A stretch of DNA of 64,000 nucleotides, from NCBI GenBank assembly GCA_004017535.1, contig SAJS01000004.1, forward strand, positions 186,001 to 250,000, read 5' to 3'. The notes under the pieces are model-generated. The model did not search any database. It was not told the DNA's origin and saw only the letters and a list, made by a program, of their open reading frames with translations. Position numbers and translations under genes: made by a program. The stretch is from Mesorhizobium sp. (lineage in GTDB: Bacteria; Pseudomonadota; Alphaproteobacteria; Rhizobiales; Rhizobiaceae). Positions 25,126-63,598 of the stretch are shown piece by piece (position 1 is the first letter of the stretch; every line of letters starts with the position of its first letter).

Positions 25126-26019
25126 TCATTCCGCCGCGAGCGGCAAATCGACGAAATGATGATCGGGCATCGACATCAGATCGGCCGAGAAGCGGGTCAG
25201 GTCGCAAGCCAGGGCGTCGAAGCCGGCCGATTTCTGGAACGTCCGCTCGTCCATGTAAAGCCCGCGATTGACCTCGATCTGCAGCGCATGCAGATGCCGC
25301 GCCGGTCTGCCGTAATGCTCGGTGATGAACCCGCCGGCATAGGGCTTGTTGTGCGCGACCGTGTAGCCCATGCCGACAAGCAGGCTGATCGCCATCTCGG
25401 TGAGCGCCGGCGAGGCCGAGATGCCGAACCGGTCGCCGATGATGAAGTCGGGCCGAACGCCATTGTCGCCGACGCGGATCGAGGCCGGCATCGAATGGCA
25501 GTCGATCAGCACGGCATAGCCGAACCTGGCATGCGTCCTGGTCAGGAGCCGCTTCAGCGTCTCGTGATAAGGCTTGTACACCGCTTCGATGCGCGCCACG
25601 GCTTCGGCCAAAGGCAGCCGTCCAGGATAGATGTCGAGCCCCTCGCCGACCAGTTTCGGCACCGTGCCCAGCCCTCCGGCGACGCGCGCCGAGCGGATGT
25701 TGCAGAAGGACGGCACCGGCTCCGCGAACATGCGCGGATCGAGTTCCCAGGGCTCGCGGTTGACGTCGAGATAAGCGCGCGGAAAGTTCGCCGCCAGCAA
25801 CGGCGCGCCGAGCGGCACGGCGCCGCCGAACAACTCCTCGACATAGCAGTCCTCCGACCGGCGGATGGCGTTGCGGTCGAGCCGCGCCATGGCCAGGAAC
25901 CGCTCCGGATAGTGGCGGCCGCTATGCGGTGAGTTGAACAGGAAAGGGACGCGCTGCTCGGCGCCCGATCGGATTTCGAAGGGTGGAACGACCGAAAAAT
26001 CCTCGGCTGCCGTCTTCAA
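25126..26019 (-). CDS. N-formylglutamate amidohydrolase family protein (paralogue 1)
   Basis: Predicted zinc hydrolase that splits N-formylglutamate to formate and glutamate, or acts on a related N-acyl glutamate. It has 297 residues. The family blocks are FLFNSPHSGRHYPE, RSEDCYVEELF, NFPRAYLDVNREPWELDP, YHETLKRLLTR and the metal-binding VLIDCHSMP. No histidine-utilisation (hut) genes lie nearby, so a hutG role is not supported by context. A perfect 14-bp palindrome sits 24 bp upstream of the ATG at 26019. A second, shorter family member is at 61809 in an amine-catabolism cluster. Confidence 0.88.
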   Translation of the reverse strand: MKTAAEDFSVVPPFEIRSGAEQRVPFLFNSPHSGRHYPERFLAMARLDRNAIRRSEDCYVEELFGGAVPLGAPLLAANFPRAYLDVNREPWELDPRMFAEPVPSFCNIRSARVAGGLGTVPKLVGEGLDIYPGRLPLAEAVARIEAVYKPYHETLKRLLTRTHARFGYAVLIDCHSMPASIRVGDNGVRPDFIIGDRFGISASPALTEMAISLLVGMGYTVAHNKPYAGGFITEHYGRPARHLHALQIEVNRGLYMDERTFQKSAGFDALACDLTRFSADLMSMPDHHFVDLPLAAE

Positions 26020-48982: not shown

Positions 48983-49899
48983 TCACCTGCCCGCCAGACT
49001 TGGGCCGATGCCCGGCGTTTCCAGGTCGATATCGATGCTCAGCGGAAAATGGTCGGATGCCACCTCGCCGACATCCGCCGTTACCGAACGCACACGCCCG
49101 GCCAGCATGCCGCCGACGAAGCAATGGTCGAGCCGGCGTTTTGCCAGTCTGCCGTCGAGAATCTTTTCATGCGTATGGAAATCCGGTCCGGGCTCCCTGG
49201 CGACGGCAGCAGCATCGACGAACCCGTCGATATAAGCGGCGCCGGGATGATACGGTATGCTGCCGGTAATACGCCGGTATTCGACGCTGCCCGCCTCCAT
49301 GTTGAAATCGCCAAGCCAGATCGCCGCCTGGGGGTTTTCGGGCTCCGCCTGGCCGTTCGACCAGTTGCGCTGGGGCTCGTCGTCGGCGCCGCTCCACGGG
49401 CCGCCGTCGGATGGCGCTCGACGATGCTCGCCAAGCAGATAGTCGATTTGCTCCAGCCGCTCCTCGGCCGCGATATGCGCCAGATGCAGGGAAAGCACCC
49501 GCACTGGCCCAGCCGGCGTGCGGATCATGCATTCCAGCGCCGCGTTGCGGGTGTGAGCGGTCTCAGCGTGCGGTGCATCGGCAGCGCATGCAGCCGCGAC
49601 CAGACGATCGGCAGCTTCGACAGCACCATCGTGCCGAACTGCCGCCTGCGGTTGACGACGCGACCGTCGCGCTTGTCGCTGGCGTCCATGTCGAAGGCGG
49701 GGCCATAGGCCCAGTAATAGCCGGGCAACAGCCTGGACAGGATCTCGGGCTGGTCGTCCTCATTGGTGCGCAGCCAATGCCGCTCGACCTCCTGCAGCGC
49801 AATGATGTCGGCGCCGTCCACCAGCCTTGCGCACCGCGAAAGATCGTAGCGCCCGTCGCTGCCGTAGCCATACTGGATGTTGTAGCTGATCAGCTTCAT
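48983..49899 (-). pseudogene. Endonuclease/exonuclease/phosphatase (EEP) family gene, frameshifted
   Basis: Two abutting minus-strand frames make one EEP-family protein of about 305 residues. The first (49899 to 49525) has SYNIQYGYG, IALQEVERHW and ends aberrantly RTLRPLTPATRRWNA. The second frame continues TRNAALECMIRTPAG and has LHLAHIAAEERLEQIDYLL, AIWLGDFNMEAGS and VASDHFPLSIDID. All catalytic motifs (Asn, Glu, GDFN, SDH) are present across the two frames. The shift lies at about 49549-49560, where one base appears to be missing. It may be a true mutation or a sequencing error; the intact product would be a Mg-dependent phosphodiesterase or phosphatase. Confidence 0.82.
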
Positions 49900-51803: not shown

Positions 51804-52868
51804 CTAGTGCAGGACCAGCATATCGCCCGACGAAAACGAAATGTCCGCCTTGTCGCCGACGACCGGCGGCGGCGTCGTGGAATTGTTGAAGGTGTCGAGC
51901 GACACCGTGTTGCCGCCGATGCCGACGCGCACGCGGATGACCGAGCCGAGGAAATGCACTTCGGCGATCTCGCCCGACAGGCTGGCGTCATGGCCGGGCT
52001 GCCGCCCCAGCGAAATCGCTTCCGGCCGCAGGGCGAGCGACAGCGTGTCGCCGGACTTAGACCCGTTGAGCTTGCCCTTGAGCGAGACTTCCTGGCTGTT
52101 TACCTGCACCTTGCCCGAGGCGGCGTCCGTGACCTTGCCCTCCAGCACGTTGAGCGTGCCGACGAAATTGGCGACGAACTTGGTTGCCGGCCGGTTGTAG
52201 ATCTCGAACGGCGTGCCGACCTGCTCGGCCCTGCCGCCATACATCACCGCGATGCGGTCTGAGATCGACAGCGCCTCTTCCTGGTCATGTGTGACGAAGA
52301 TGGTGGTGATGCCGAGCTTCTTCTGGATCGAACGGATTTCCTCGCGCAGCGACACGCGTACCTTGGCGTCGAGCGCCGACAGCGGCTCGTCGAGCAGCAA
52401 CAGCTTCGGCTTCGGCGCAATGGCGCGGGCCAATGCGATGCGCTGCTGCTGGCCGCCGGAAAGCTGGTAGGGATAGCGGTCGGCCATTTGCGGCAGCTTT
52501 ATCATGTCAAGCATTTCAGCAACGCGCCTGTCCGCGTCCGGCTTCGCCATGCCGCCCACCTTCAACCCGAAGGCGATGTTCTGCGCCACGGTCAGGTTCG
52601 GGAACAAAGCATAGGCCTGGAACACCATGCCGACATTGCGCTGGTTGGGTTTCAGCCTGGTGATGTCCTTGCCGCCGACGACGATCTTACCGGCCGAGGG
52701 CTCCTCGAAGCCGGCGACCATGCGCAGCACCGTCGTCTTGCCGCAGCCCGATGGGCCAAGGAAGGAGACGAACTCGCCGGGCGCGACATCGAGATTGAAA
52801 TCCTCGACCACAGTCGTGGCGCCGAAGGATTTTCGCACATGCTGAATGGAGAGGAACGGCTCGGCCAT
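51804..52868 (-). CDS. ABC transporter ATP-binding protein (PotA/FbpC-like)
   Basis: A 354-residue importer ATPase. Walker A is GPSGCGKTT, the Q-loop is VFQAYALFPNLTV, the signature is QLSGGQQQRIALARAIA, Walker B is LLLDEPLSALDAKVR and the switch His is in FVTHDQEEALSIS. A TOBE domain occupies the last 110 residues (LALRPEAISLGR, GEIAEVHFLGSVIRVRV). It is the fourth gene of a minus-strand set: binding protein, two permeases, ATPase. The family serves polyamines, iron or 2-aminoethylphosphonate. The nearby amine-catabolism genes favour an amine, by inference. Confidence 0.94.
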   Translation of the reverse strand: MAEPFLSIQHVRKSFGATTVVEDFNLDVAPGEFVSFLGPSGCGKTTVLRMVAGFEEPSAGKIVVGGKDITRLKPNQRNVGMVFQAYALFPNLTVAQNIAFGLKVGGMAKPDADRRVAEMLDMIKLPQMADRYPYQLSGGQQQRIALARAIAPKPKLLLLDEPLSALDAKVRVSLREEIRSIQKKLGITTIFVTHDQEEALSISDRIAVMYGGRAEQVGTPFEIYNRPATKFVANFVGTLNVLEGKVTDAASGKVQVNSQEVSLKGKLNGSKSGDTLSLALRPEAISLGRQPGHDASLSGEIAEVHFLGSVIRVRVGIGGNTVSLDTFNNSTTPPPVVGDKADISFSSGDMLVLH

Positions 52869-52893
52869 GGCTTTTTCTTTCAGTGCTTTTCGC

Positions 52894-53694
52894 TCAATTG
52901 GGGCGGCTCGCCGATTTCGGCGCGAAGCGCGACAGTATCTGAATCAGTGACATGCAGCCCCATGTTATTACGAAGGCGATGATCGACAGCGCTGCCGGTT
53001 CATAGGCGCGGTTGGCGACCAAATTCTGCAGATAGGGGCCGAAAGCCGGGCGGTTGAGTAGGCTGGCCATCGTGAACTCGCCGATGACGATCGCAAAGGT
53101 GAGGAACGCGCCTGACAATACAGCGATCAGCACATTTGGCAGAATGACCCGGGCGATGATCGTGCCCCAGCCGGCGCCCAGGATCTGCGCTGCCTCCGTG
53201 AGCGTGCGCACGTCGATGGTGCGAAGGCCGGTGTCGACGGCGCGGTACATATAAGGCAGCGCAAGCGCGGCGTAGCCGATCACCAGCAACGCGTTCGCTC
53301 CCAAATTCGACCCCAGGAACGGCAGCGGTGAATTCGAGCCGTACATCCGGATATAGCCGAAGACGATGACGATCGCCGGGATCACCAGCGGCAGCAGCGT
53401 AATGAATTCCACGATCGGCCTGAGCTGCGGCAGGCGCAGACGGATCCAATAGGCCGTGGGCACCACGATCAGCACACCGAGCAGGATGGTGAAGACGGCA
53501 ACGATCACCGAGAACATGAAGGTCGCCTGGAACTGGCTGTCGCCCAGCACCACCTTGTAAGCGTCGAAGGAATAGACGCCGCGCCGCATGCGCAGCGAGA
53601 ACTCGATCGTCGCGATCAGCGGGATGAAGAAATAGGCCGCGCCCAAGAGGAAGACGAACCAGGCCCAGAACCTGCCGGATTTCATTTCAGCCAC
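52894..53694 (-). CDS. ABC transporter permease (PotC-like)
   Basis: A 266-residue inner-membrane permease with about six helices, starting FWAWFVFLLGAAYFFIPLIA. The permease loop region reads TLTEAAQILGAGWGTIIARV, followed by ILPNVLIAVLSGAFLTFAIV. The reading frame overlaps the preceding permease by 13 bp, and the ATPase gene starts 25 bp downstream. No signal for substrate is visible. Confidence 0.92.
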   Translation of the reverse strand: MAEMKSGRFWAWFVFLLGAAYFFIPLIATIEFSLRMRRGVYSFDAYKVVLGDSQFQATFMFSVIVAVFTILLGVLIVVPTAYWIRLRLPQLRPIVEFITLLPLVIPAIVIVFGYIRMYGSNSPLPFLGSNLGANALLVIGYAALALPYMYRAVDTGLRTIDVRTLTEAAQILGAGWGTIIARVILPNVLIAVLSGAFLTFAIVIGEFTMASLLNRPAFGPYLQNLVANRAYEPAALSIIAFVITWGCMSLIQILSRFAPKSASRPN

Positions 53695-54596
53695 CTCTCC
53701 GAGCGCGTCCGGAACCAGATGTAGAAGATGTTGGCAAGCCCGGTGATGAAGATCATGCCGAAGGCAATGGCGTAGCCGAGATGGGCATTATGCAGCACGT
53801 CGCCGCGGATCTGCGCATAGAGCAGGATCGGAACGATGTTGAGCGACGAGCCGGTCAGCGCGTAGGCGGTTGCAATCGCTCCGAAGGCGTTGGCGAAGAG
53901 CAGGATGACAGTGCCAAGGAAGCTCGGCCAAAGCACCGGAATGACCACCATGCGCCAATATTGCGCCTGGGTGGCGCCGAGCGTCGCGGCGGCCTCGCCC
54001 CATTCGCGTTTCAAGCCGTCGATGGCCGGCACGATGATGACCACCATCAACGGGATCTGGAAATAGACGTAGGTGATCGTCAATCCCCAGAATGACAGCA
54101 GGTTGAAGCCATGCGCATAGAGGTTCAGGCCAACCAGCGTGTTGAGCAGCACCGTGACGAGACCGAGCCGCCCAAGCGTCGCGATGAAGGCGAAGGCGAG
54201 CGGCACGCCCGCGAAATTGGATGCGACGCCGGAGAAGGTGAGCGTCGCCGAACGTATCCAGTTGGGCAGCCCGCCGCGCACAATGGCGATGGCGATGGCG
54301 AGGCCTGCGAAGGCGCCGATCAGCGATGACGCCAGGCTGACCTTTATCGAGATCCAGTAAGCGGCAACGATGTTGGCCGAGAAGAGCGCTACGATGTTGG
54401 CGAAGGTGAATTCGCCCGCCTCGTTCTGGAAAGCGCCCAGCATCAGATAGAGCGTGGGCAGGATCAGGAACATCACGGCGAAGACGAAGAAAGGCGTGAC
54501 GCCAAGCCACTGCGTCGGCAGCCGCAGGCTTCGCGCCTCGGCTGGCGGCGCGGTGTTTCCCGCAATTGCCTTGTTGGATAGCGAGAGATCGGTCAT
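53682..54596 (-). CDS. ABC transporter permease (PotB-like)
   Basis: A 304-residue inner-membrane permease. After a 28-residue cytoplasmic start comes FFVFAVMFLILPTLYLMLGA and five further helices. The loop that meets the ATPase reads EWGEAAATLGATQAQYWRMV. It has the longer N-terminus usual for the first permease of spermidine- and AEP-type importers. The stop overlaps the start of the second permease. The binding-protein gene ends 62 bp upstream. Confidence 0.92.
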   Translation of the reverse strand: MTDLSLSNKAIAGNTAPPAEARSLRLPTQWLGVTPFFVFAVMFLILPTLYLMLGAFQNEAGEFTFANIVALFSANIVAAYWISIKVSLASSLIGAFAGLAIAIAIVRGGLPNWIRSATLTFSGVASNFAGVPLAFAFIATLGRLGLVTVLLNTLVGLNLYAHGFNLLSFWGLTITYVYFQIPLMVVIIVPAIDGLKREWGEAAATLGATQAQYWRMVVIPVLWPSFLGTVILLFANAFGAIATAYALTGSSLNIVPILLYAQIRGDVLHNAHLGYAIAFGMIFITGLANIFYIWFRTRSERWLK

Positions 54597-54658
54597 GCGC
54601 CGGTTACCGTGCTGGAACGCGGCCGGGCGACCATGGCCGCCCGGCCGATATCACGCTG

Positions 54659-55765
54659 TTACTTCACATTGGCGCCGACGACGGCGTCCCAATTCTTGGT
54701 GATGGTTTCCTTGGCCTTGCCCTGCTCGTCGAGCGTCGGGAACACGGCGGAAGCATAGGATTCCGCCGGCGGCAGCTTGGCCAGCACGTCCGCCGGGATC
54801 TTGCCGTTCTTGGCGAGATCGTTGAAGCGGATAGGATGGCAATAGCCCTTCAGCCAGCCGATCTGGCCTTCGTCGGAGTAGAGGTATTCCATCCACAGCT
54901 TCGCAGCATTCGGATGCGGCGCGAAAGCGCTGATCGCCTGCACGTAGACGCCCGCGACAACGCCCGTCTTCGGCACGATGACGTCGACGGGCGGATTGCC
55001 CTTCAGCGTGTCGCGGCCCGAAAGCGCGTTGTAGTCCCAGGTGACGAGGATCGGCGTCTGGCCTTGGGCCAGCGTCGCCGTCTTGCCGATGACCGGCACG
55101 AAATTGCCGGCGGCGTTGAGCTTCTTGAAGTAATCCAAGCCAGCGGTGCCTGCGGCTTCCCCAGCGGCGGCGCCACCGGAAAGGCCGGCAGCGTAGACCG
55201 CCTGGATGGCCTGGTTCGAAGCGCGCGGATCACCGGCGAGCGCGACCGAGTTGGCGAATTCCGGCTTGAGGAGATCAGCCCAGTCGGTCGGCGATTCCTT
55301 GACCAGATCCTTGTTCACCTGGAAGGAGAGCACGCCGTAATAGTCGCCGTACCAGGCGCCGTCGGCATCCTTAGCGCTGTCCGGGATCGAGTCCCAGGTC
55401 GACACCTTGTAGGGCAACAGCAGCCCGTCTTTCTTGGCGGTCGGGCCGAACGAAAGGCCGACGTCGATGACATCGGGCGCCTGCGGGCCCTTATTGTCCT
55501 TATTGGCCTTGATCGCCTCGACCTCGTCGCCGGAACCGGCGTCCGGATTGAGCTCGTTGATGGTGATCCCCGGATACTTAGCCTTGAAACCGTCGATCAC
55601 TGCCCCATAGCCACACCAGTCATGCGGAAGCGCGATGGTGGTGAGCTGGCCTTCAGCCTTCGCGGCCTTGACGAGATCGTCCAGCGAATCCGCGGACGAA
55701 ATCATCGTCGACGCGAAGAGCGCCGCGGCCGAGAGGGAAAGCACTTTCCCCGTGAACTTGAACAT
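54659..55765 (-). CDS. ABC transporter periplasmic substrate-binding protein (spermidine/AEP/iron type)
   Basis: A 368-residue exported binding protein. A signal peptide (VLSLSAAALFASTMISSADS) precedes LDDLVKAAKAEGQLTTIALP, the usual opening of family 1/6 binding proteins. Further blocks are KAKYPGITINELNPDAGSGD, WYGDYYGVLSFQVNKDLV and WMEYLYSDEGQIGWLKGYCHP. It has two Cys, one early and one late. It is the first gene of its operon, with 244 bp upstream that include a palindrome around GTTAAC. Ligand is not certain; the position next to the alcohol/aldehyde dehydrogenase and gamma-glutamyl ligase genes suggests an amine or amino-alcohol. Confidence 0.9.
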   Translation of the reverse strand: MFKFTGKVLSLSAAALFASTMISSADSLDDLVKAAKAEGQLTTIALPHDWCGYGAVIDGFKAKYPGITINELNPDAGSGDEVEAIKANKDNKGPQAPDVIDVGLSFGPTAKKDGLLLPYKVSTWDSIPDSAKDADGAWYGDYYGVLSFQVNKDLVKESPTDWADLLKPEFANSVALAGDPRASNQAIQAVYAAGLSGGAAAGEAAGTAGLDYFKKLNAAGNFVPVIGKTATLAQGQTPILVTWDYNALSGRDTLKGNPPVDVIVPKTGVVAGVYVQAISAFAPHPNAAKLWMEYLYSDEGQIGWLKGYCHPIRFNDLAKNGKIPADVLAKLPPAESYASAVFPTLDEQGKAKETITKNWDAVVGANVK

Positions 55766-55867
55766 GTGTTCTCTCCGTTGAACTGGCGCGGTTAAGCGCC
55801 TGCGATGCGGGTATCGTTTTCGTGTGACAGCCAGATGAAGGCTTTTTGAAACCGGAGCCCCACAGCG

Positions 55868-55886
55868 AAAAAAGTTAACTCTTTTT
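55868..55886. promoter_or_regulatory. AT-rich palindrome upstream of the binding-protein gene
   Basis: AAAAAAGTTAACTCTTTTT is nearly symmetrical about GTTAAC (55874-55879). It lies about 100 bp upstream of the ATG at 55765, within a promoter-sized gap. It could be an operator, or an upstream gene's weak termination signal. Confidence 0.35.
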
Positions 55887-56009
55887 AAGGGACTGTAGCA
55901 ATTAGCCCGCGCTTAATTTTCCGGCTAATGGTTAGCTGTCTTGATTTTTGACCCTTCTCCCTTTCCTCGAGTGTTCCCTTCTTCAACTTTTGGTCTTGAA
56001 AGCCGGCTC

Positions 56010-57182
56010 TCAGACGGAGCCGGCGATGGCATTTTCGAGCAGCGTCAGCGCCGCTTTCTTGGTGAGCTTCACGGGGTTGCCGCCGGCGGTCGGGTCGACC
56101 AAGGCCATATCGGCGATCAGGGTCTTGCGCTTCTTGTCCATGTCGAGCCCCTTGATCAGGCCGGGCAGCGCGTGCGGCACCTTGAGCTCCTTGCGCAGCT
56201 TGATGATGGCCTTGGCGAAGCCGTCGAAGCCGCCCTTGATGCCGCAATAGGCGGCGAGCCGTGCGATACGATCCTCGATCGCCTCCCGGTTGAAAGCCAG
56301 CACATAGGGCATGAACACCGCATTGGTCATGCCGTGATGGGTGTCGTACAGCGCGCCGATCGGATGCGACAGCGAATGGATGGCCCCCAGCCCCTTCTGG
56401 AAAGCGGTGGCGCCCATGGCCGCCGCGCTCATCATATGGGCGCGCGCGACCAGATCCTTGCCGTTGGCGAAGGCCTTCGGCAGGTTCTCGAACACCAGTC
56501 GGATGCCTTCCACGGCGATGCCGTCGGCCATCGGGTGATAGCCCGGCGCGCAATAAGCTTCGAGGCAGTGCGCCAGCGCGTCCATGCCGGTGCCGGCGGT
56601 GATGAAGGGCGGCATGCCGACAGACAGTTCCGGGTCGGCAATGACGATCGCCGGCAGAAGCTTCGGATGGAAGATGACCTTCTTGGTGTGGGTCTCCTCA
56701 TTGGTGATGACGCCGGCGCGGCCAACCTCGGACCCCGTGCCCGCCGTGGTCGGCACCGCGACGATCGGCGCAATCACGTCCGAATTTGCCCGGGTCCACC
56801 AGTCGCCGATATCCTCGAAATCCCAAACGGGCCGTGTCTGCCCGGCCTGGAAGGCGATGAGCTTGCCGAGGTCGAGCGCGGAGCCGCCGCCGAAGGCGAT
56901 GACGCCGTCATGCTTCCCCTTCTTGAACACCGCGATGCCGGCGGTGAGATTGGACTCGACCGGGTTAGGCCTCACCTCCGAGAAGACGCCGTATGGGATC
57001 TTGGCATCGTCGAGGATCTTCAGCGTCGAGGCGACGACGGGCAGCTTCGCAAGGCCCGGATCGGTGACGAAGAGCGGCCGCTTGATGCCCGTCGCATTGA
57101 GGACATCAGGCAATTCCTTGATGCGCCCGGCGCCGAAGCGGACGGTGGTGGGATAGTTCCATTTGGAGATCAGCTTGGACAT
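56010..57182 (-). CDS. Iron-containing (group III) alcohol dehydrogenase
   Basis: A 390-residue NAD(P)-dependent dehydrogenase of the Fe-ADH family. The nucleotide-binding block is GVIAFGGGSALDLGKLIAFQ. The metal-site His are in GTGMDALAHCLEAYCAPGYHPMADGIA and HPIGALYDTHHGMTNAVFMPYV. The N-terminus KWNYPTTVRFGAGRIKELPDV is typical. ATG 57182 sits 18 bp behind the aldehyde dehydrogenase stop, so both belong to one transcript. An alcohol-to-aldehyde step followed by aldehyde-to-acid oxidation is the natural reading. Specificity (ethanol, hydroxy-butyrate, amino-alcohol) cannot be told from sequence. Confidence 0.93.
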   Translation of the reverse strand: MSKLISKWNYPTTVRFGAGRIKELPDVLNATGIKRPLFVTDPGLAKLPVVASTLKILDDAKIPYGVFSEVRPNPVESNLTAGIAVFKKGKHDGVIAFGGGSALDLGKLIAFQAGQTRPVWDFEDIGDWWTRANSDVIAPIVAVPTTAGTGSEVGRAGVITNEETHTKKVIFHPKLLPAIVIADPELSVGMPPFITAGTGMDALAHCLEAYCAPGYHPMADGIAVEGIRLVFENLPKAFANGKDLVARAHMMSAAAMGATAFQKGLGAIHSLSHPIGALYDTHHGMTNAVFMPYVLAFNREAIEDRIARLAAYCGIKGGFDGFAKAIIKLRKELKVPHALPGLIKGLDMDKKRKTLIADMALVDPTAGGNPVKLTKKAALTLLENAIAGSV

Positions 57183-57200
57183 TTTTTGTCTTTCGAAAGG

Positions 57201-58589
57201 TCAGATCGCTTCGCGCAGGTGGTAGGATTTCGGGCGGGTCAGATTGTCGTAGCCGATGGCCGAGAGCGCCGCGCCCTTGCCCGTGTCCTTGACGCCGGTC
57301 CAGACCAGCGCCGGGTCGAGATAGTCGCAGCGGTTCATGAACACGGTGCCGGTCTCGACGCGGTCGCCGATGGCGATGGCGCGCTCGGTGTCGCGTGTCC
57401 AGATCGACGCGGTCAGCCCATAGGGGCTGTCGTTCATCAGCGCTATCGCCTCCTCGTCGTTGCGCACCTTCATGATGCCGACGATCGGCCCAAAACTCTC
57501 CTCGCGCATGACGCTCATCTGGTGGTCGACATTGGTCAGCACTTCCGGCGCCAGATAGGGCGAGCCGGCCCTATCGTTCTCGACCTTCATGTTGATATGC
57601 GCGGTCGCGCCTTTGCGCAGCGCCTCGGCCTTCTGCTCGCGGATCAGGTCGGCGAAGCGCGCCTGCGCCATCGGGCCCATTGTCGTCGCCTGTTCCAGCG
57701 GATTGCCGACGACATAGTTCTTCGTCTCGGCGACGAAACCTTCGACGAACGCGTCATAGACCTTCTCGTGCACATAGACGCGCTCGATGCCGCAACAGCA
57801 CTGGCCGGAATTGTAGAAGGTGCCGTCGACAAGATTGGCGACCGCATGGTCCAGCTTGGCGTCGGGCAGCACATAGGCCGGATCCTTGCCGCCGAGCTCG
57901 AGACCGAGCGTCATGAAGGTGCCGGCCGCCGCCTTCTCGATGGCGCGGCCGCCGCCCACCGATCCGGTGAAGTTGACATGGTCGATCTTGCCGGAGCCGA
58001 GCAGCTTCTCGGTCTGGGCATGGTTCATGACGAGGTTCTGGAACAGCCCCTTGGGCAACCCCGCTCTGTCGAAAGCCTGCTGCAAGCGTTCGCCGACGAG
58101 CAACGTCTGTGCCGCATGCTTGAGGATGACGGCGCTGCCGGCCATCAACGCCGGCACGATGGTGTTGACGGCGGTGAGATAGGGATAGTTCCAAGGCGCG
58201 ATCACCAACACGACGCCGAGCGGCACTTTCTTTACATAGCGTCGAAAACCCTCCTTCGGGTTCGAGGCCACGACCGGCTTGAGTGCCTGTTCGGCGATCT
58301 CGACCATGTAGTTGGTGCGTTCCTTAACGCCGCCGAACTCGCCGCCATAGCGCACCGGCCGCCCCATCTGCCAGGCGATCTCCGGCACGATCTCGTCGGT
58401 CATGGCGACCAGCGCCTCGAGCATCGCCAGCATGTATTTGCCGCGCTCGATGACCGGCGTCTCGGCCCATTTCTCCTGCGCCGCCCTGGCGCGCTCGACC
58501 GCCGCGTTGATCGCCTGGTCGCTAGCGACCGGCCGCTCGGCATAGATCGAGCCGTCGACGGGGGATTTCAGTTTGACCGTTTCGGTCAT
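57201..58589 (-). CDS. Aldehyde dehydrogenase of the gamma-glutamylation cluster
   Basis: A 462-residue ALDH. APWNYPYLTAVNTIVPALMA begins the cofactor site, VILKHAAQTLLVG follows. The general base is in GLELGGKDPAYVL and the nucleophile Cys in NSGQCCCGIERVYVH. REESFGPIVGI and LDPALVWTGVKDTGKG close the chain. MTETVKLKSPVDGSIY at 58589 is the chosen start, with GAGGA about 10 bases upstream; the open frame to 58805 reads through the repeat and is not coding. It is separate in sequence from the ALDH of the sugar-type operon. It would oxidise the aldehyde made by the neighbouring Fe-ADH. Confidence 0.93.
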   Translation of the reverse strand: MTETVKLKSPVDGSIYAERPVASDQAINAAVERARAAQEKWAETPVIERGKYMLAMLEALVAMTDEIVPEIAWQMGRPVRYGGEFGGVKERTNYMVEIAEQALKPVVASNPKEGFRRYVKKVPLGVVLVIAPWNYPYLTAVNTIVPALMAGSAVILKHAAQTLLVGERLQQAFDRAGLPKGLFQNLVMNHAQTEKLLGSGKIDHVNFTGSVGGGRAIEKAAAGTFMTLGLELGGKDPAYVLPDAKLDHAVANLVDGTFYNSGQCCCGIERVYVHEKVYDAFVEGFVAETKNYVVGNPLEQATTMGPMAQARFADLIREQKAEALRKGATAHINMKVENDRAGSPYLAPEVLTNVDHQMSVMREESFGPIVGIMKVRNDEEAIALMNDSPYGLTASIWTRDTERAIAIGDRVETGTVFMNRCDYLDPALVWTGVKDTGKGAALSAIGYDNLTRPKSYHLREAI

Positions 58590-58633
58590 TTTATAAGTCC
58601 TCGCAATTTTGCAACAATTGATATGCGTATGGC

Positions 58634-58750
58634 CTGCCCTCATCCGCTTGCCGGCACCTTCTCCCTGTGTAGGAACGGGGAAAAGGGAAGCGTTCCAACG
58701 CCGGCTACCCCTCTCCTCGTTCTCACGGGAGAGGTTAGGGTGATGGGCAG
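58634..58750. repeat. Second intergenic palindromic repeat type
   Basis: An imperfect inverted repeat of about 117 bp, with ends CTGCCCTCATCC and GGGTGATGGGCAG. Inside are CCTTCTCCCTGTG/ACGGGGAAAAGGG and CCCCTCTCCTCGT/ACGGGAGAGGTTAGG half-palindromes. Elements with this CTCATCCGCTTGCCGGCACC start are familiar from Mesorhizobium intergenic DNA, by memory. It lies between the glutamine-synthetase-like and ALDH genes of one operon. Confidence 0.7.
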
Positions 58751-58771
58751 CGCCGACGCTAACGCGACACC

Positions 58772-60142
58772 TTAATACCTCTCGAAGCCGCGATGCAGTT
58801 CCCAATCCGTAATGCGGCGGTCGTATTCGAACTGCTCCCAGCGCGCGGTGTGCACATAGTGCTCGATCACCTCCTCGCCGAAGGCCTGCTTCAGCATCTT
58901 CGACTTGGCCAGCGTCTCGGTGGCGTCTCGCAACGTCTTCGGGATCTCCGGCAGCCGCGAAGCCTGGTAGGCGTCGCCGACGAACGGCTTCTGCAATTCC
59001 AGCTTCTCGTCAATGCCGGCCAGGCCGGACGCGATCAGCGCCGCGAAGGCCAGATAAGGGTTCAAATCGGCGCCGCCGATACGGCACTCCATGCGGATGC
59101 CTTTCGTGCCCTCGCCGCAGAGCCGGAAGCCGGCGGTGCGGTTGTCCTCGCTCCACATGATCTTGGTCGGCGCGAAGGTGCCGGCCTGGAAGCGCTTGTA
59201 GGAGTTGATGTAGGGCGCCAGGAACCAAGTGAACTCCTTGGCGTATTTGAGCTGGCCGGCCGCCCATTGCTGGCCGAGGCTCGACAGCGTCCATTCGGCC
59301 TTTTTGTCGAAGAACAGCGGCGTCTTGCCGTCGGCGCTCCACAGCGAATTGTGGATGTGGCTGGAATTGCCGGCGAGCCCGTAATTGTACTTGGCCATGA
59401 AGGAGATGGCCTTGCCTTCGGAATCGGCGATCTCCTTGGCGCCGTTCTTCAGGATGACGTGGCGGTCGGCCATATCGAGCGCTTCGGCGTAGCGCACATT
59501 GATCTCTTCCTGACCGGGGCCCCACTCGCCCTTGGAATTCTCGATCGGGATGCCGGCCGCCTCCATCTCGTTGCGAAGCCGGCGCATGACGCCTTCTTCC
59601 TTGGTGGTGATGCCGATCTGGTAGTCGCCGATATAAGGCGAGGCGCTGTCGAGCCCCTGCCAGTGCTTCTTGCGGGCCGACTCGTAGGTCTCGCTGAACA
59701 GGTAGAATTCGAGCTCGGAGGCGAAATAGCCGATATAGCCGCGCTCCTGCAGGCGCTTGACCTGCTTCTTCAGGATCGCGCGCGGCGAGTGCCCGAGATC
59801 CTCATGCGTGTGATGGTCGAGCACGTCGCAGATGACCAGCGCCGTCTTTTCCAGCCACGGAATGCGCCGCAGCGTCGACAGGTCCGGCTTCATGACGAAG
59901 TCGCCATAGCCCTTCGACCAGCTCGCCGCCTTGTAGCCCGGCACCGGCTCCATATCGATGTCGCAGGCGAGCAGATAGTTGCAGCCATGCGTCTCGCCAT
60001 GCGCGGAATCGACGAAATACTGGGCCAGGAAGCGCTTTCCCGCGAGCCGGCCCTGCATGTCGACGATGCAGGCCAGCACTGTGTCGATCTCGCCGTTCGA
60101 GACCGCTTTCTTCAACTGATCGAACGAGAAATTCCCGGCCAT
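58772..60142 (-). CDS. Glutamine-synthetase-family gamma-glutamyl-amine ligase (PuuA/GlnA4-like)
   Basis: A 456-residue member of the GS superfamily that probably ligates glutamate to an amine with ATP rather than to ammonia. Metal- and nucleotide-site blocks are FASELEFYLFS (Glu143, Glu145), GPGQEEINVRYAEALDMAD, then AGNSSHIHNSLW in place of the NGSGMHxHxS of true GS. ECRIGGADLNPYLAFAALIA is the signature shared with PuuA and GlnA3/GlnA4. It lacks the adenylylation Tyr context of GlnA by inspection. It lies 88 bp downstream of the permease gene and upstream of the ALDH. It would activate the imported amine as a gamma-glutamyl amide. Confidence 0.88.
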   Translation of the reverse strand: MAGNFSFDQLKKAVSNGEIDTVLACIVDMQGRLAGKRFLAQYFVDSAHGETHGCNYLLACDIDMEPVPGYKAASWSKGYGDFVMKPDLSTLRRIPWLEKTALVICDVLDHHTHEDLGHSPRAILKKQVKRLQERGYIGYFASELEFYLFSETYESARKKHWQGLDSASPYIGDYQIGITTKEEGVMRRLRNEMEAAGIPIENSKGEWGPGQEEINVRYAEALDMADRHVILKNGAKEIADSEGKAISFMAKYNYGLAGNSSHIHNSLWSADGKTPLFFDKKAEWTLSSLGQQWAAGQLKYAKEFTWFLAPYINSYKRFQAGTFAPTKIMWSEDNRTAGFRLCGEGTKGIRMECRIGGADLNPYLAFAALIASGLAGIDEKLELQKPFVGDAYQASRLPEIPKTLRDATETLAKSKMLKQAFGEEVIEHYVHTARWEQFEYDRRITDWELHRGFERY

Positions 60143-60230
60143 TCCTTTGGCGCTCCAGTGCTAGTCGATTTGAAGGGAGAAACGAGAGCCATGGCCGGCG
60201 TTACGCCGGCCATGGCCAGGAAGCGAAGGT

Positions 60231-61787
60231 TCAGTGGCCGGTCTCGCCGACCGCCTGTTCGGCCGCCTTGATCGCCGCCTGGCGCGCCGCGATGATGTCG
60301 CCCAGCGGCGGACCCTGGAAGCGGTTACGCTCGAAAGCGAACCAGACGATCGCCGTCAGGATGAAGAAGCCGACGGTGATGTAGAGCGCCCAGTCGTTCG
60401 GCGGCTGGATGCCGATGACGAAGATCAGGATCATCGACACGATCGACAGGAAGGCGAACAGCATGAAGACGCCGCGCCCCATGTTCCACGGCCCCATCTT
60501 GTCCCACTTCGGCGTTCCCCAGGCCATCATGCCGAGCACGATAGGCACGATGAAGGAGAGGAACAGGAAGATGACGGTGCAGGACACCACGATGGTGTAG
60601 GCCGAGGTGCCGGCGACCGAAACCACCGACGAGCCCCATACGAACAGCACCGACAGGATCGAGGCCGTCCAGATCGCGGCCACCGGCGTGCGGTAGGTCG
60701 GGCTGACCTTGGAAAGCGCCGATGAACCGGGCAGGCCGCCGTCACGCGAGAAGGCGAAGATCATGCGCGAGGCCGAGGTGACGGTGGCGAGCCCACACAG
60801 GAGCTGCGCCAGGAACACGACGAGGTAGACGAACTCCTTGATGCCGGGGCTGACGCGCTGGTCGAAAGCCCAGAAGAACACGTTCCAGCCCTGCTTGGCG
60901 GCGTCATCCATGTTCGGGATCATCAACACGAAGGCGGCCAAGAACAGGTAGCCGAACAGCGCCGACCAGATGACCGACATGACCATCGCGCGCGGCACGG
61001 AAGAAGCCGCCTTGATGGTCTCTTCCGAGGTATGGGCGGAAGCGTCATAGCCGGTGATCGTGTAGATCGGCAGCAGCAGGCCGAGCGCGAAAACCCAGGC
61101 ATTCGACACCTGCGGCCAGACACCGCCGCCGGCGTCACCCGAGTAGTTGTGGAAGGTGAAGAGACGGCTGAAATCCCACGTCTCGGCGGAGATCAGGCAG
61201 ACGATGGCAATCAGGATCGAGCCGAAGAAGATGAGGTAGCCCGAGAAGTCGGTCAGTTTCGCCGTCAGCTTGATGCCGAGGTGGTTGATCAGCGCTTGGG
61301 CGCCGGTGATGATGACCAGGAAGATCATCTGGTTGGTCAGCGTGCCCTCGATCCCGAGCGCCGGTCCGAAAGCACCGAGGAAGAACGTCCAGGTGCCGAC
61401 ATTGATGGCGCCGAGCACGGTGATCAGGCCGAGCAGATTGAGCCAGGCCGTCACCCAGCCGGTGCCGCGATTGCCCAGGATCGAACCCCAGTGATAGAGG
61501 CCGCCGGCCGTCGGATAGGCCGAGCTGATCTGCGACATGGCGACGGCAAAGGTGAGTGAGATGAAGCAGCCGACGAGCCAGCCGATGCCGACGCCGATGC
61601 CGCCGGCGCCCGAGGTCGCCTGCGCCAGCGAGTTGATGCCGCCGGACAGGATGCAGATGATCGAGAAGGAAACCGCGAAATTCGAAAAGCGGCTGAGCCG
61701 CCGCTCCAGTTCTTGGGCATAGCCCATGCTGTGAAGGACCTGAATATCCTTCGCCTTATCGACTTCGGTATAGTCGTCTGCTGCCAT
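60231..61787 (-). CDS. APC-superfamily amino acid/amine permease (GABA/ethanolamine-type)
   Basis: A 518-residue inner-membrane transporter with about 12 helices. The opening FSNFAVSFSIICILSGGINS is characteristic of the amino acid/choline family. SQISSAYPTAGGLYHWGSIL, then GYDASAHTSEETIKAASSVPRAM and ASRMIFAFSRDGGLPGS are family landmarks. The C-terminal 25 residues are cytoplasmic. Relatives carry GABA, ethanolamine or choline. The gene begins 21 bp after the amidohydrolase-like gene and belongs with it. A separate ABC importer in the same cluster suggests that the substrate has a high- and a low-affinity route. Confidence 0.92.
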   Translation of the reverse strand: MAADDYTEVDKAKDIQVLHSMGYAQELERRLSRFSNFAVSFSIICILSGGINSLAQATSGAGGIGVGIGWLVGCFISLTFAVAMSQISSAYPTAGGLYHWGSILGNRGTGWVTAWLNLLGLITVLGAINVGTWTFFLGAFGPALGIEGTLTNQMIFLVIITGAQALINHLGIKLTAKLTDFSGYLIFFGSILIAIVCLISAETWDFSRLFTFHNYSGDAGGGVWPQVSNAWVFALGLLLPIYTITGYDASAHTSEETIKAASSVPRAMVMSVIWSALFGYLFLAAFVLMIPNMDDAAKQGWNVFFWAFDQRVSPGIKEFVYLVVFLAQLLCGLATVTSASRMIFAFSRDGGLPGSSALSKVSPTYRTPVAAIWTASILSVLFVWGSSVVSVAGTSAYTIVVSCTVIFLFLSFIVPIVLGMMAWGTPKWDKMGPWNMGRGVFMLFAFLSIVSMILIFVIGIQPPNDWALYITVGFFILTAIVWFAFERNRFQGPPLGDIIAARQAAIKAAEQAVGETGH

Positions 61788-61808
61788 TTGGAAGTCCCCT
61801 GTTGGTTC

Positions 61809-62627
61809 TTAGCTGGCCGATTGTACTGACTTACCCATTGCGCGTTGTCGGGAGCCCCTGGCCTCCTCGGGCTCCAGATTCGAAAATATGCCCGTGAGCA
61901 GATCCGCCCATTTCCGCTGCCCGGTCTCGCCGGCGATTTCGTCGTTGCGGATTTCGATCATCGCGCAGGCAAGGCCGCGCGGGCGCGCATGCCGCTCCAG
62001 CGTGAAGTAGACGCGGTCGGTCGGCGAATAAGGTTCGTTGATGCCGACGGTGACGCCCGAGAGCCGCCGCAGCGCCGCCACCAGGGGCGTCGCCAGGCGC
62101 CGGTCGTCATCATGGATGATGCCGATATGCCAGGGCCGGCTCTTGCCCTTGTAGACCGGCGTGAAGGAATGCACCGAGACCAGCCGCGTCTCCTGCCCAC
62201 GCGCCAGCCGCCGGTCGACGATCTGGGAGATGGCGTCATGAAACGGACGCCAGGCAAGGTCGATCCGCGCGGCGCGCTGCTTCTCGGAAAGACCGGCATT
62301 GCCGGGAATGACTGTGGTCTCGCTGACCGGCGGCACGAGGTCGGGCGCGTCGAGCGGCCGGTTGCAGTCGATGACGAGACGCGACACACGGGTCTCAACC
62401 AGGGTGGCGTCAAGCGCCTCGGCCATGCGGCTGGCAACAGGCAGCGCGCCCGGATCCCATGCGATGTGGCGCGAAAGGTCTTCGGCCGGCAAGCCGAGCG
62501 TTCCGAATTCGGCGGGCAGGAAGTTCGAGGCGTGGTCGCAGGTGAAGACGAAGGGGCTCAAGCCGCCAGGGTTGGTCACCCTTACGGTCTCCGACGGTGC
62601 AAGGCTGGCGGGCCGTGCTTTCTCCAT
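61809..62627 (-). CDS. N-formylglutamate amidohydrolase family protein (paralogue 2, amine cluster)
   Basis: A 272-residue predicted zinc amidohydrolase. The blocks are PFVFTCDHASNFLPAEFG, LSRHIAWDPGA, VSRLVIDCNRPLDAPDLVPP, VSVHSFTPVYKGKSRPWHIG and MIEIRNDEIAGETGQRKWAD. It differs from paralogue 1 in length and in its N-terminal zinc-site wording (DHASNFLP rather than PHSGRHYP), so it is probably a distinct subfamily. As the promoter-proximal gene of the amine cluster, it is a good candidate to split gamma-glutamyl or N-acyl amide bonds of intermediates. This is inference from context. It is divergent from an RpiR regulator. Confidence 0.86.
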   Translation of the reverse strand: MEKARPASLAPSETVRVTNPGGLSPFVFTCDHASNFLPAEFGTLGLPAEDLSRHIAWDPGALPVASRMAEALDATLVETRVSRLVIDCNRPLDAPDLVPPVSETTVIPGNAGLSEKQRAARIDLAWRPFHDAISQIVDRRLARGQETRLVSVHSFTPVYKGKSRPWHIGIIHDDDRRLATPLVAALRRLSGVTVGINEPYSPTDRVYFTLERHARPRGLACAMIEIRNDEIAGETGQRKWADLLTGIFSNLEPEEARGSRQRAMGKSVQSAS

Positions 62628-62773
62628 ACTGCCGTCCCCTGGGGAGCGCTGTATCTTATGTTACGTATTTTGCCTCATTGCGTCCCGGTGAATGATTTCA
62701 TACAGTTTAAACGGCTTTGTCAAACGCGAATTCGGGAAAACGGCGGGGGCGGGTCAACGGATGGGGGAAAACG

Positions 62774-63598
62774 ATGATTTCCAGCATTGCCGAACTGATC
62801 TCCGACCGCATCGGCGCGATGCCGGCCGGCGAGCGCCGCGCCGCCCAGACACTGATTGCCAACTATCCTTTGACCGGGCTGAAGACGGTCGCCGAATTCT
62901 CGGCCGCGGCGGGCGTGTCCTCGCCGACTATCCTGCGTTTCGTCGCCAGGCTGGGTTTCCAGAACTACCCCGAATTCCAGTCGGCGCTGCAGGATGAGCT
63001 GGCGGCGCAATTGCAGTCGCCCGCTTCGCGCACGCTCGATCCAGGCTCGGCCGGCGGCGCCGTCTCGCCGATGCTGGAGGCAACGCTCGACAATTTGCGC
63101 GAGACCTTCCGACACCTCACCGACAAACAGTTGGCCGACATCGCGGCGCGGCTTGCCGAGCGGCGCGGCAAGACCTTCCTCATCGGCGGCCGCTTCACCG
63201 ATCCGCTGGCGCGCTACATGGCCGCCCATCTCGCCATCATCCAGCCGGATGTCTATCACCTCGCAGGCCAGGAGAGCATCTGGCGCGACCGCCTGATCGA
63301 CATGGGCAAGCGTGACGTGCTGGTGATCTTCGACATCCGCCGCTACCAGGAAAGCCTCGTCCGCTTCGCCGAGAAAGCGCATCACCGCGGCGTGCAGATC
63401 ATCCTCTTTACCGACCAATGGCTGTCGCCGATCGCCCGCTTCGCTCGCCATGTGATCGCCGGACGCACTGCCGTGCCTTCGGCCTGGGATTCGTCCGCCG
63501 CTCTCTTCGTCGTCGCCGAAACCCTGATCGGCGCCGTGACGAGGCAATTGGAAGCCGCCGGCGCCAAGCGCATCCGCGATCTCGAAAGCTTGCGCTGA
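62774..63598 (+). CDS. RpiR-family transcriptional regulator
   Basis: A 274-residue regulator with an N-terminal helix-turn-helix of the RpiR type (FSAAAGVSSPTILRFVARLGF) and a C-terminal SIS domain (GKTFLIGGRFTDPLARYMAAHL). In many members SIS binds a sugar phosphate; members in amine clusters exist too. MISSIAELISDRIG at 62774 is chosen, with GGGGGAAA upstream; a Met at 62717 would add a basic leader. It stands divergent from the amidohydrolase-like gene, 146 bp apart, and is the likely regulator of the amine cluster. Its effector is not evident. Confidence 0.9.
   Translation: MISSIAELISDRIGAMPAGERRAAQTLIANYPLTGLKTVAEFSAAAGVSSPTILRFVARLGFQNYPEFQSALQDELAAQLQSPASRTLDPGSAGGAVSPMLEATLDNLRETFRHLTDKQLADIAARLAERRGKTFLIGGRFTDPLARYMAAHLAIIQPDVYHLAGQESIWRDRLIDMGKRDVLVIFDIRRYQESLVRFAEKAHHRGVQIILFTDQWLSPIARFARHVIAGRTAVPSAWDSSAALFVVAETLIGAVTRQLEAAGAKRIRDLESLR

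Follow-up and report, generated by a model that had tools for sequence, protein, structure and literature searches.

The window analysed here, a 64,000-nucleotide stretch of Mesorhizobium sp. (assembly GCA_004017535.1, contig SAJS01000004.1, positions 186,001 to 250,000), carries at 51804–63598 a gene cluster that is very probably an operon for the use of ethanolamine through gamma-glutamyl intermediates. Ten genes fill this interval, with intergenic gaps of at most 244 bases. On the minus strand, a gene of the FGase (N-formylglutamate amidohydrolase) family is followed by an APC permease, a ligase of the glutamine synthetase (GS) type, an aldehyde dehydrogenase (ALDH), an iron-type alcohol dehydrogenase (Fe-ADH) and then the genes of an ATP-binding cassette (ABC) importer; the gene for an RpiR-family regulator lies on the plus strand. 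All ten genes listed in an initial annotation, made from the sequence alone, are present and belong to the Pfam families it named. Its remark that the cluster is devoid of an amine oxidase and of a class I amidotransferase-type hydrolase also stands, as neither an FAD amine oxidase (for which no genome-wide search was made) nor a class I amidotransferase is found among the ten genes. The features are as follows.

62717–63598, plus strand: RpiR-family regulator, divergent (HTH_6 and SIS above the Pfam cut-off); the ATG at 62774 is the more probable start than 62717
61809–62627, minus strand: FGase-family amidohydrolase, putative gamma-glutamylglycine hydrolase (PF05013, 170.5 bits)
60231–61787, minus strand: APC permease, putative ethanolamine permease (PF13520 and PF00324)
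58772–60142, minus strand: GS-fold ligase, putative ethanolamine gamma-glutamylase (PF00120)
57201–58598, minus strand: ALDH, predicted to oxidize the gamma-glutamyl aldehyde (PF00171, 399.6 bits)
56010–57182, minus strand: Fe-ADH, predicted to oxidize gamma-glutamylethanolamide (PF00465 and ADH_Fe_C)
55824–55852, minus strand: Pho-box-like repeats upstream of the importer, three 7-base half-sites 11 bases apart (weight-matrix score 16.99)
54659–55765, minus strand: ABC importer binding protein, SBP_bac_6, substrate probably a phosphorus compound (PF13343)
53682–54596, minus strand: ABC importer permease 1 (PF00528, 27.1 bits against a cut-off of 26.4)
52894–53694, minus strand: ABC importer permease 2 (PF00528, 41.1 bits)
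51804–52868, minus strand: ABC importer ATPase (PF00005 and TOBE_2)

From the gene content, homology, conserved order and transporter exchange described below, we infer the reactions, the substrate and the regulation. The APC permease would bring ethanolamine in, and the GS-fold ligase would join it to glutamate, using ATP. Fe-ADH would then oxidize the alcohol of gamma-glutamylethanolamide to the aldehyde, and ALDH would oxidize the aldehyde to gamma-glutamylglycine, which the FGase-family enzyme would hydrolyze to glycine and glutamate, with recycling of the latter. Local regulation would probably fall to the RpiR protein, and the neighbouring ABC importer would be a separate unit, probably under PhoB control. 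The initial annotation had proposed the same order of steps, from ligase through Fe-ADH and ALDH to the amidohydrolase, with glycine and glutamate as products from ethanolamine; this order matches a published pathway, and the comparative evidence favours ethanolamine.

Indeed, the arrangement is not new, as a gamma-glutamyl route for ethanolamine has already been published. The operon described for Phaeobacter MED193 comprises RpiR, gamma-glutamylglycine amidohydrolase, EtoVWX, ethanolamine gamma-glutamylase, aldehyde dehydrogenase and gamma-glutamylethanolamide dehydrogenase (PMC10132767), that is, RpiR, FGase, transporter, ligase, ALDH and Fe-ADH in the order seen in the window. The difference lies in transport: EtoVWX, a TRAP (tripartite ATP-independent periplasmic) importer, occupies the place of the window's APC permease, and the passages describing that operon name no ABC importer in it and give no strand for RpiR. 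The same source finds raised levels of five of the operon products (FGase, three further enzymes and the binding protein) during growth on phosphorylethanolamine. It gives the Kd of EtoX for ethanolamine as 7.9 uM and attributes the route also to Chromohalobacter salexigens and Agrobacterium tumefaciens C58, citing Vetting and others 2015 (PMC10132767). The four enzyme families of the window (PF00120, PF00465, PF00171 and PF05013) are listed in Table 2 of another study (PMC9397018). Compared by its description, the GlnA4 cluster of S. coelicolor is similar as well, since the proposal made for it starts with a gamma-glutamylethanolamide synthetase and continues with two oxidations and hydrolysis by a member of the formylglutamate amidohydrolase family; that family member appears in the discussion, whereas the enzymes given in the figure legend include a short-chain dehydrogenase and a glutamine amidotransferase (PMC6529630). 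No paper combining Mesorhizobium and ethanolamine with glutamine synthetase and amidohydrolase was found in a literature search that covered few subscription journals.

Over the aligned stretches the window ligase is 74% identical to PDB 11zs (802 bits) and 55% identical to PDB 5dm3 (552 bits), the latter being, as we understand it, the C. salexigens ligase encoded beside an ethanolamine TRAP gene; its identity to E. coli GlnA and PuuA is 27% and 26%, respectively. Among 199 genomes from the order, 83 have a close relative of the ligase (51–100% identity); below these, identities do not exceed 46%. The gap between 51% and 46% bounds the group, within which the window ligase can be regarded, on sequence comparison, as an orthologue of the 5dm3-type ligase. 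Of the GlnA positions compared, E130, E132, E213, E221, H270, R322, R340, R345, E358 and R360, which we take to form the metal, ATP and glutamate/substrate sites, are kept in the window ligase, whereas D51, S54, Y180 and E328, presumably forming the ammonia site, are replaced by P, K, D and F. Assignment as an ordinary glutamine synthetase (GlnA, TIGR00653) was rejected, the score being 247.7 bits against a cut-off of 429.15.

To describe the neighbourhood of this ligase, we used the best 80 of 304 stretches returned by the ligase search (genus-level loci; ligase identity 93–100%), 77 of which are labelled Mesorhizobium and three (L008, L031 and L083) by order or strain only, together with 63 loci fetched from 78 close ligase relatives outside the genus, among them the ligase orthologues L189–L191. 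Neighbours were counted within 9 kb, with bit thresholds chosen after the scores were known. In 80/80 genus-level and 46/63 other-genera loci, FGase, ligase, ALDH and Fe-ADH are encoded in that sequence on a single strand, implying that the grouping is more than chance. Outside the genus, RpiR is found near the ligase in 49, FGase in 53, ALDH in 50 and Fe-ADH in 55 of the 63 loci, all three partner enzymes being present in 46. The regulator is divergent and within 1.5 kb of FGase in 78/80 genus-level and 45/63 other-genera loci. Six further loci had ligase identities of 30–35%; two of them (L184 and L185, at about 33%) have partner genes and were therefore moved to a second ligase type considered below, and the other four served as controls. 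No partner genes were found near the distant GS relatives in these four or in four loci at 40–46% identity. Spacing varies within the genus: about 750–810 extra bases lie between ligase and ALDH in L024 and L040, about 540–555 between ALDH and Fe-ADH in L032, L064 and L080, and about 1.75 kb of extra DNA between FGase and the permease in L040. In four other loci (L130, L132, L134 and L151), ligase, FGase and Fe-ADH are clustered, but the stretch retrieved yields no ALDH at a threshold of 1e-8.

Evidence on the substrate comes from the slot between FGase and ligase, which is occupied by different transporters. Within the genus, 73 of the 80 loci have an APC permease like that of the window there, 6 have a gene of the ethanolamine-permease type and one has a TRAP importer. 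Among the 63 loci from other genera, the corresponding numbers are 6 APC, 4 ethanolamine-permease type and 33 TRAP; one further locus has an APC gene before a ligase without FGase, and 19 have none of the three transporters nearby. Four of the ten ethanolamine-permease-type genes were scanned and reach 335–373 bits with TIGR00908, whose cut-off is 381.75. The TRAP binding proteins of L060 (from the genus) and L117 match PDB 4uab with 492 and 459 bits, respectively, each as the sole match at 1e-20, and 4uab is, to our understanding, the ethanolamine-binding protein of C. salexigens. Exchange with transporters of these two types argues that the window's APC permease also carries ethanolamine, and points to ethanolamine as the substrate of the pathway; by its context, this protein is a candidate ethanolamine permease. 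APC genes of the genus span 47–98% identity. In L048, L064, L072 and L080 the APC protein is only 64% identical to that of the window, against 92–95% for ligase, ALDH and Fe-ADH, as would be expected had the permease been replaced.

ALDH has no match among PDB sequences at 1e-80. Fe-ADH has five at 1e-50, all of them alcohol, methanol or propanediol dehydrogenases. FGase shares 48% identity with PDB 2odf (Atu2144) over the part aligned. Its identification as HutG N-formylglutamate deformylase (TIGR02017) was rejected at 31.8 bits against a cut-off of 278.75. AlphaFold2 models built from 16-row genus-level alignments were uninformative, with a mean pLDDT (predicted local distance difference test) of 41.1 for FGase and 34.5 for the importer binding protein. 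A second FGase-family gene is present in the window at 25126–26019; its product is 23% identical to the cluster FGase and scores 118.6 bits with the HutG model, again under the cut-off, and the genome as a whole has five FGase matches.

A hydrolase role for FGase is supported by the second ligase type, examined in 19 loci (L184, L185 and L200–L216). The ligase of L185 is only about 32% identical to that of the window, and its accompanying ALDH, Fe-ADH, APC and RpiR are 70%, 59%, 73% and 43% identical, respectively. Ligases of this type occur in 19 of the 199 genomes at 1e-120, L185's own genome included, and their loci mostly resemble those of the first type in the kinds of ALDH, Fe-ADH, permease and regulator that they carry. 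Seven of the 19 loci have FGase, five have a class I amidotransferase (counted as such if related to the one after the L185 Fe-ADH), none has both, and seven have neither, three of the latter being on short contigs; by family, the exchange amounts to 2 lineages versus 3. Each of the two amidotransferase-type proteins in L185 has GATase and Peptidase_C26 matches, and E. coli PuuD, which we take to be of the class I amidotransferase type, is annotated as a gamma-glutamyl hydrolase. The distribution is suggestive of two enzymes exchanged for each other, with FGase acting as the hydrolase.

The ABC importer lies outside the conserved pathway. The initial annotation placed everything in one cluster, and this description stands for the regulator, FGase, permease, ligase, ALDH and Fe-ADH, which are conserved together; it does not extend to the importer, a separate unit behind a gap of 244 bases. 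We consider it unlikely that the importer is the pathway's dedicated high-affinity ethanolamine importer, although it is found after Fe-ADH, with the same orientation, in 79/80 genus-level loci. Relatives of its binding protein were found at 1e-60 in 43 of the 199 genomes, 7 of which have them near the ligase cluster (five in this genus and two in one other genus of the family, where the importer lies on the other side of RpiR). The ligase is present in 31/43 importer genomes compared with 52/156 others (Fisher p 8e-6 by genome and 0.011 by genus, uncorrected for kinship and genome size), an association that would favour such a role; however, 12 of the 43 importer genomes are devoid of this ligase and 7 of both ligase types. 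Moreover, in 20 unlinked loci, taken from 36 genomes, the importer stands as an operon of four genes with no orthologues of the pathway genes nearby: 14 of these loci have no match to a pathway protein at 1e-6, and six have only weak ALDH or ligase matches (28–32%). The neighbours of these 20 operons give no clue to the substrate, as no catabolic gene is shared by most of them in a gene listing that includes antisense reading frames. Because its relatives are mostly unlinked to the pathway and Pho-box-like repeats lie upstream, the importer does not appear to be an ethanolamine importer, and its earlier assignment to the pathway is not upheld.

The importer ATPase scores 437.4 bits with PhnT2 (cut-off 457.7) and 355 bits with the PotA subfamily model (cut-off 355.6), and the binding protein 63.5 bits with PhnS (cut-off 395.3); the weaker PDB relatives of the binding protein include some named as binding 2-aminoethylphosphonate and pyridoxal phosphate, but also others named for iron, sulfate and spermidine/putrescine. 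Compared with the PhnSTUV and PhnS2-type importers of 2-aminoethylphosphonate, the ATPase is close to PhnT2 and the binding protein distantly related, but the latter is far under the cut-off and no phosphonate gene is present among the ten. An identification as a 2-aminoethylphosphonate importer was rejected, as both binding protein and ATPase fall below the model cut-offs. The Pho-box-like repeats and the stand-alone four-gene operon together suggest that the importer probably takes up a phosphorus compound.

The repeats lie in the gap between Fe-ADH and the importer, in which the part near the importer is conserved in the genus (80 aligned sequences). They resemble the Pho-consensus boxes that precede pstS, ugpB, phoB and phoA in E. 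coli, from which the weight matrix was built; the consensus was fixed beforehand, and the motif was tried after the sequence had been seen. Weight-matrix scores of at least 12 occur upstream of 68% of 38 importer operons outside the genus; across nine control sets the share is 0–15%, and among 760 shuffles it is 2%. The matrix alone is insufficiently specific, as the gap between FGase and RpiR in the window scores 16.07. The number of matches in the two nearest half-sites separates the two promoters of the window, with 9/14 for the enzymes (FGase/RpiR) versus 12/14 for the importer; in the same genome, pstS reaches 13, phnG 12 and phnC 11. At least 12/14 matches are found upstream of the importer in 79/79 cases within the genus and 12/38 outside it, 26/38 falling short, compared with 3/248 among controls from other genera (FGase 0/53, RpiR 0/49, DctP 1/33, ligase 0/63, ALDH 2/50), 0/78 for genus FGase, 0/80 for genus Fe-ADH and 5/760 shuffles. 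At the level of 11/14, the importer outside the genus has 21/38, versus 15/50 for ALDH, 6/53 for FGase and 40/760 shuffles. Pho-box-like repeats are shared by many importer relatives across genera (L217–L236, L244–L259, L131 and L133). By sequence, a Pho box is thus present upstream of the importer operon, as is expected of a member of the PhoB regulon, and the operon is probably a PhoB-controlled unit switched on by phosphate shortage. Another rhizobial operon, predicted to transport iron, is described as having a Pho box and as strongly induced under phosphate stress (PMC8829014).

Several observations weigh against the ethanolamine pathway as proposed. The window's APC permease falls outside the ethanolamine permease family, its best NCBIfam match being 214 bits against a cut-off of 598, and the two permease-type siblings from the genus that were scanned score 373.2 and 369.4 bits, slightly under the TIGR00908 cut-off. 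At the thresholds used, 17/63 other-genera loci lack one or more of the partner enzymes, and 5/63 lack all three. Outside the second ligase type the exchange of hydrolases is not strict: two of the 63 first-type loci (L149 and L150) have FGase and, about 6.6 kb away, a weak amidotransferase match (30–34%). Finally, the aligned cluster FGases are 46–57% identical to that of the window, so that a single substrate for all of them is an assumption. The different subfamily of the APC permease, and a chemistry that would suit other primary amino-alcohols, would agree with the same reactions acting on isopropanolamine, propanolamine or alaninol; this is improbable, as the seven genus loci without APC, whose ligase, ALDH and Fe-ADH are 92–96% identical to those of the window, hold the ethanolamine-permease type (6) or a 4uab-like TRAP importer (1). 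A polyamine pathway of the Puu kind, acting on putrescine or some related amine and suggested by the family resemblance of the ligase, by the PotA score of the importer ATPase and by the ligase, aldehyde dehydrogenase and hydrolase acting on gamma-glutamyl intermediates in E. coli Puu, is very improbable, as the ligase reaches 190.7 bits against a gamma-glutamylputrescine synthetase cut-off of 650 and was rejected as such an enzyme, the cluster has an alcohol dehydrogenase and FGase in place of the FAD oxidase puuB and the hydrolase puuD, and none of the six Peptidase_C26 matches of the genome is on the window's contig, the strong one lying on another.

Scans for signals found 0 sigma-70 promoters versus 2.7 expected by chance and 15 terminator-like sites versus 8.5 expected. 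Elsewhere in the window, at 48983–49528, the open frame covers no more than the C-terminal part of a protein of the endonuclease/exonuclease/phosphatase family (Pfam positions 138–225 of 225; 24.4 bits, just below the cut-off of 24.5), and stops precede the open stretch in the one frame read; this is possibly a broken gene.

For the ethanolamine pathway proposed here, the comparison reveals a published but little-noticed route built of exchangeable parts, with three kinds of transporter in one slot within a single genus, and with ligase and hydrolase each in two types. Such exchange makes the hydrolase assignment testable and would allow the renaming of genes that currently carry the name glutamine synthetase or N-formylglutamate amidohydrolase. 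A tentative possibility is that Mesorhizobium has joined the ethanolamine pathway to a PhoB-controlled importer of phosphoethanolamine, glycerophosphoethanolamine or 2-aminoethylphosphonate, so that at a single locus phosphorus would be harvested when scarce and the leftover ethanolamine burnt for carbon and nitrogen. If the importer is indeed controlled by phosphate, this would be a possible link in rhizobia between membrane-lipid phosphorus and nitrogen use.

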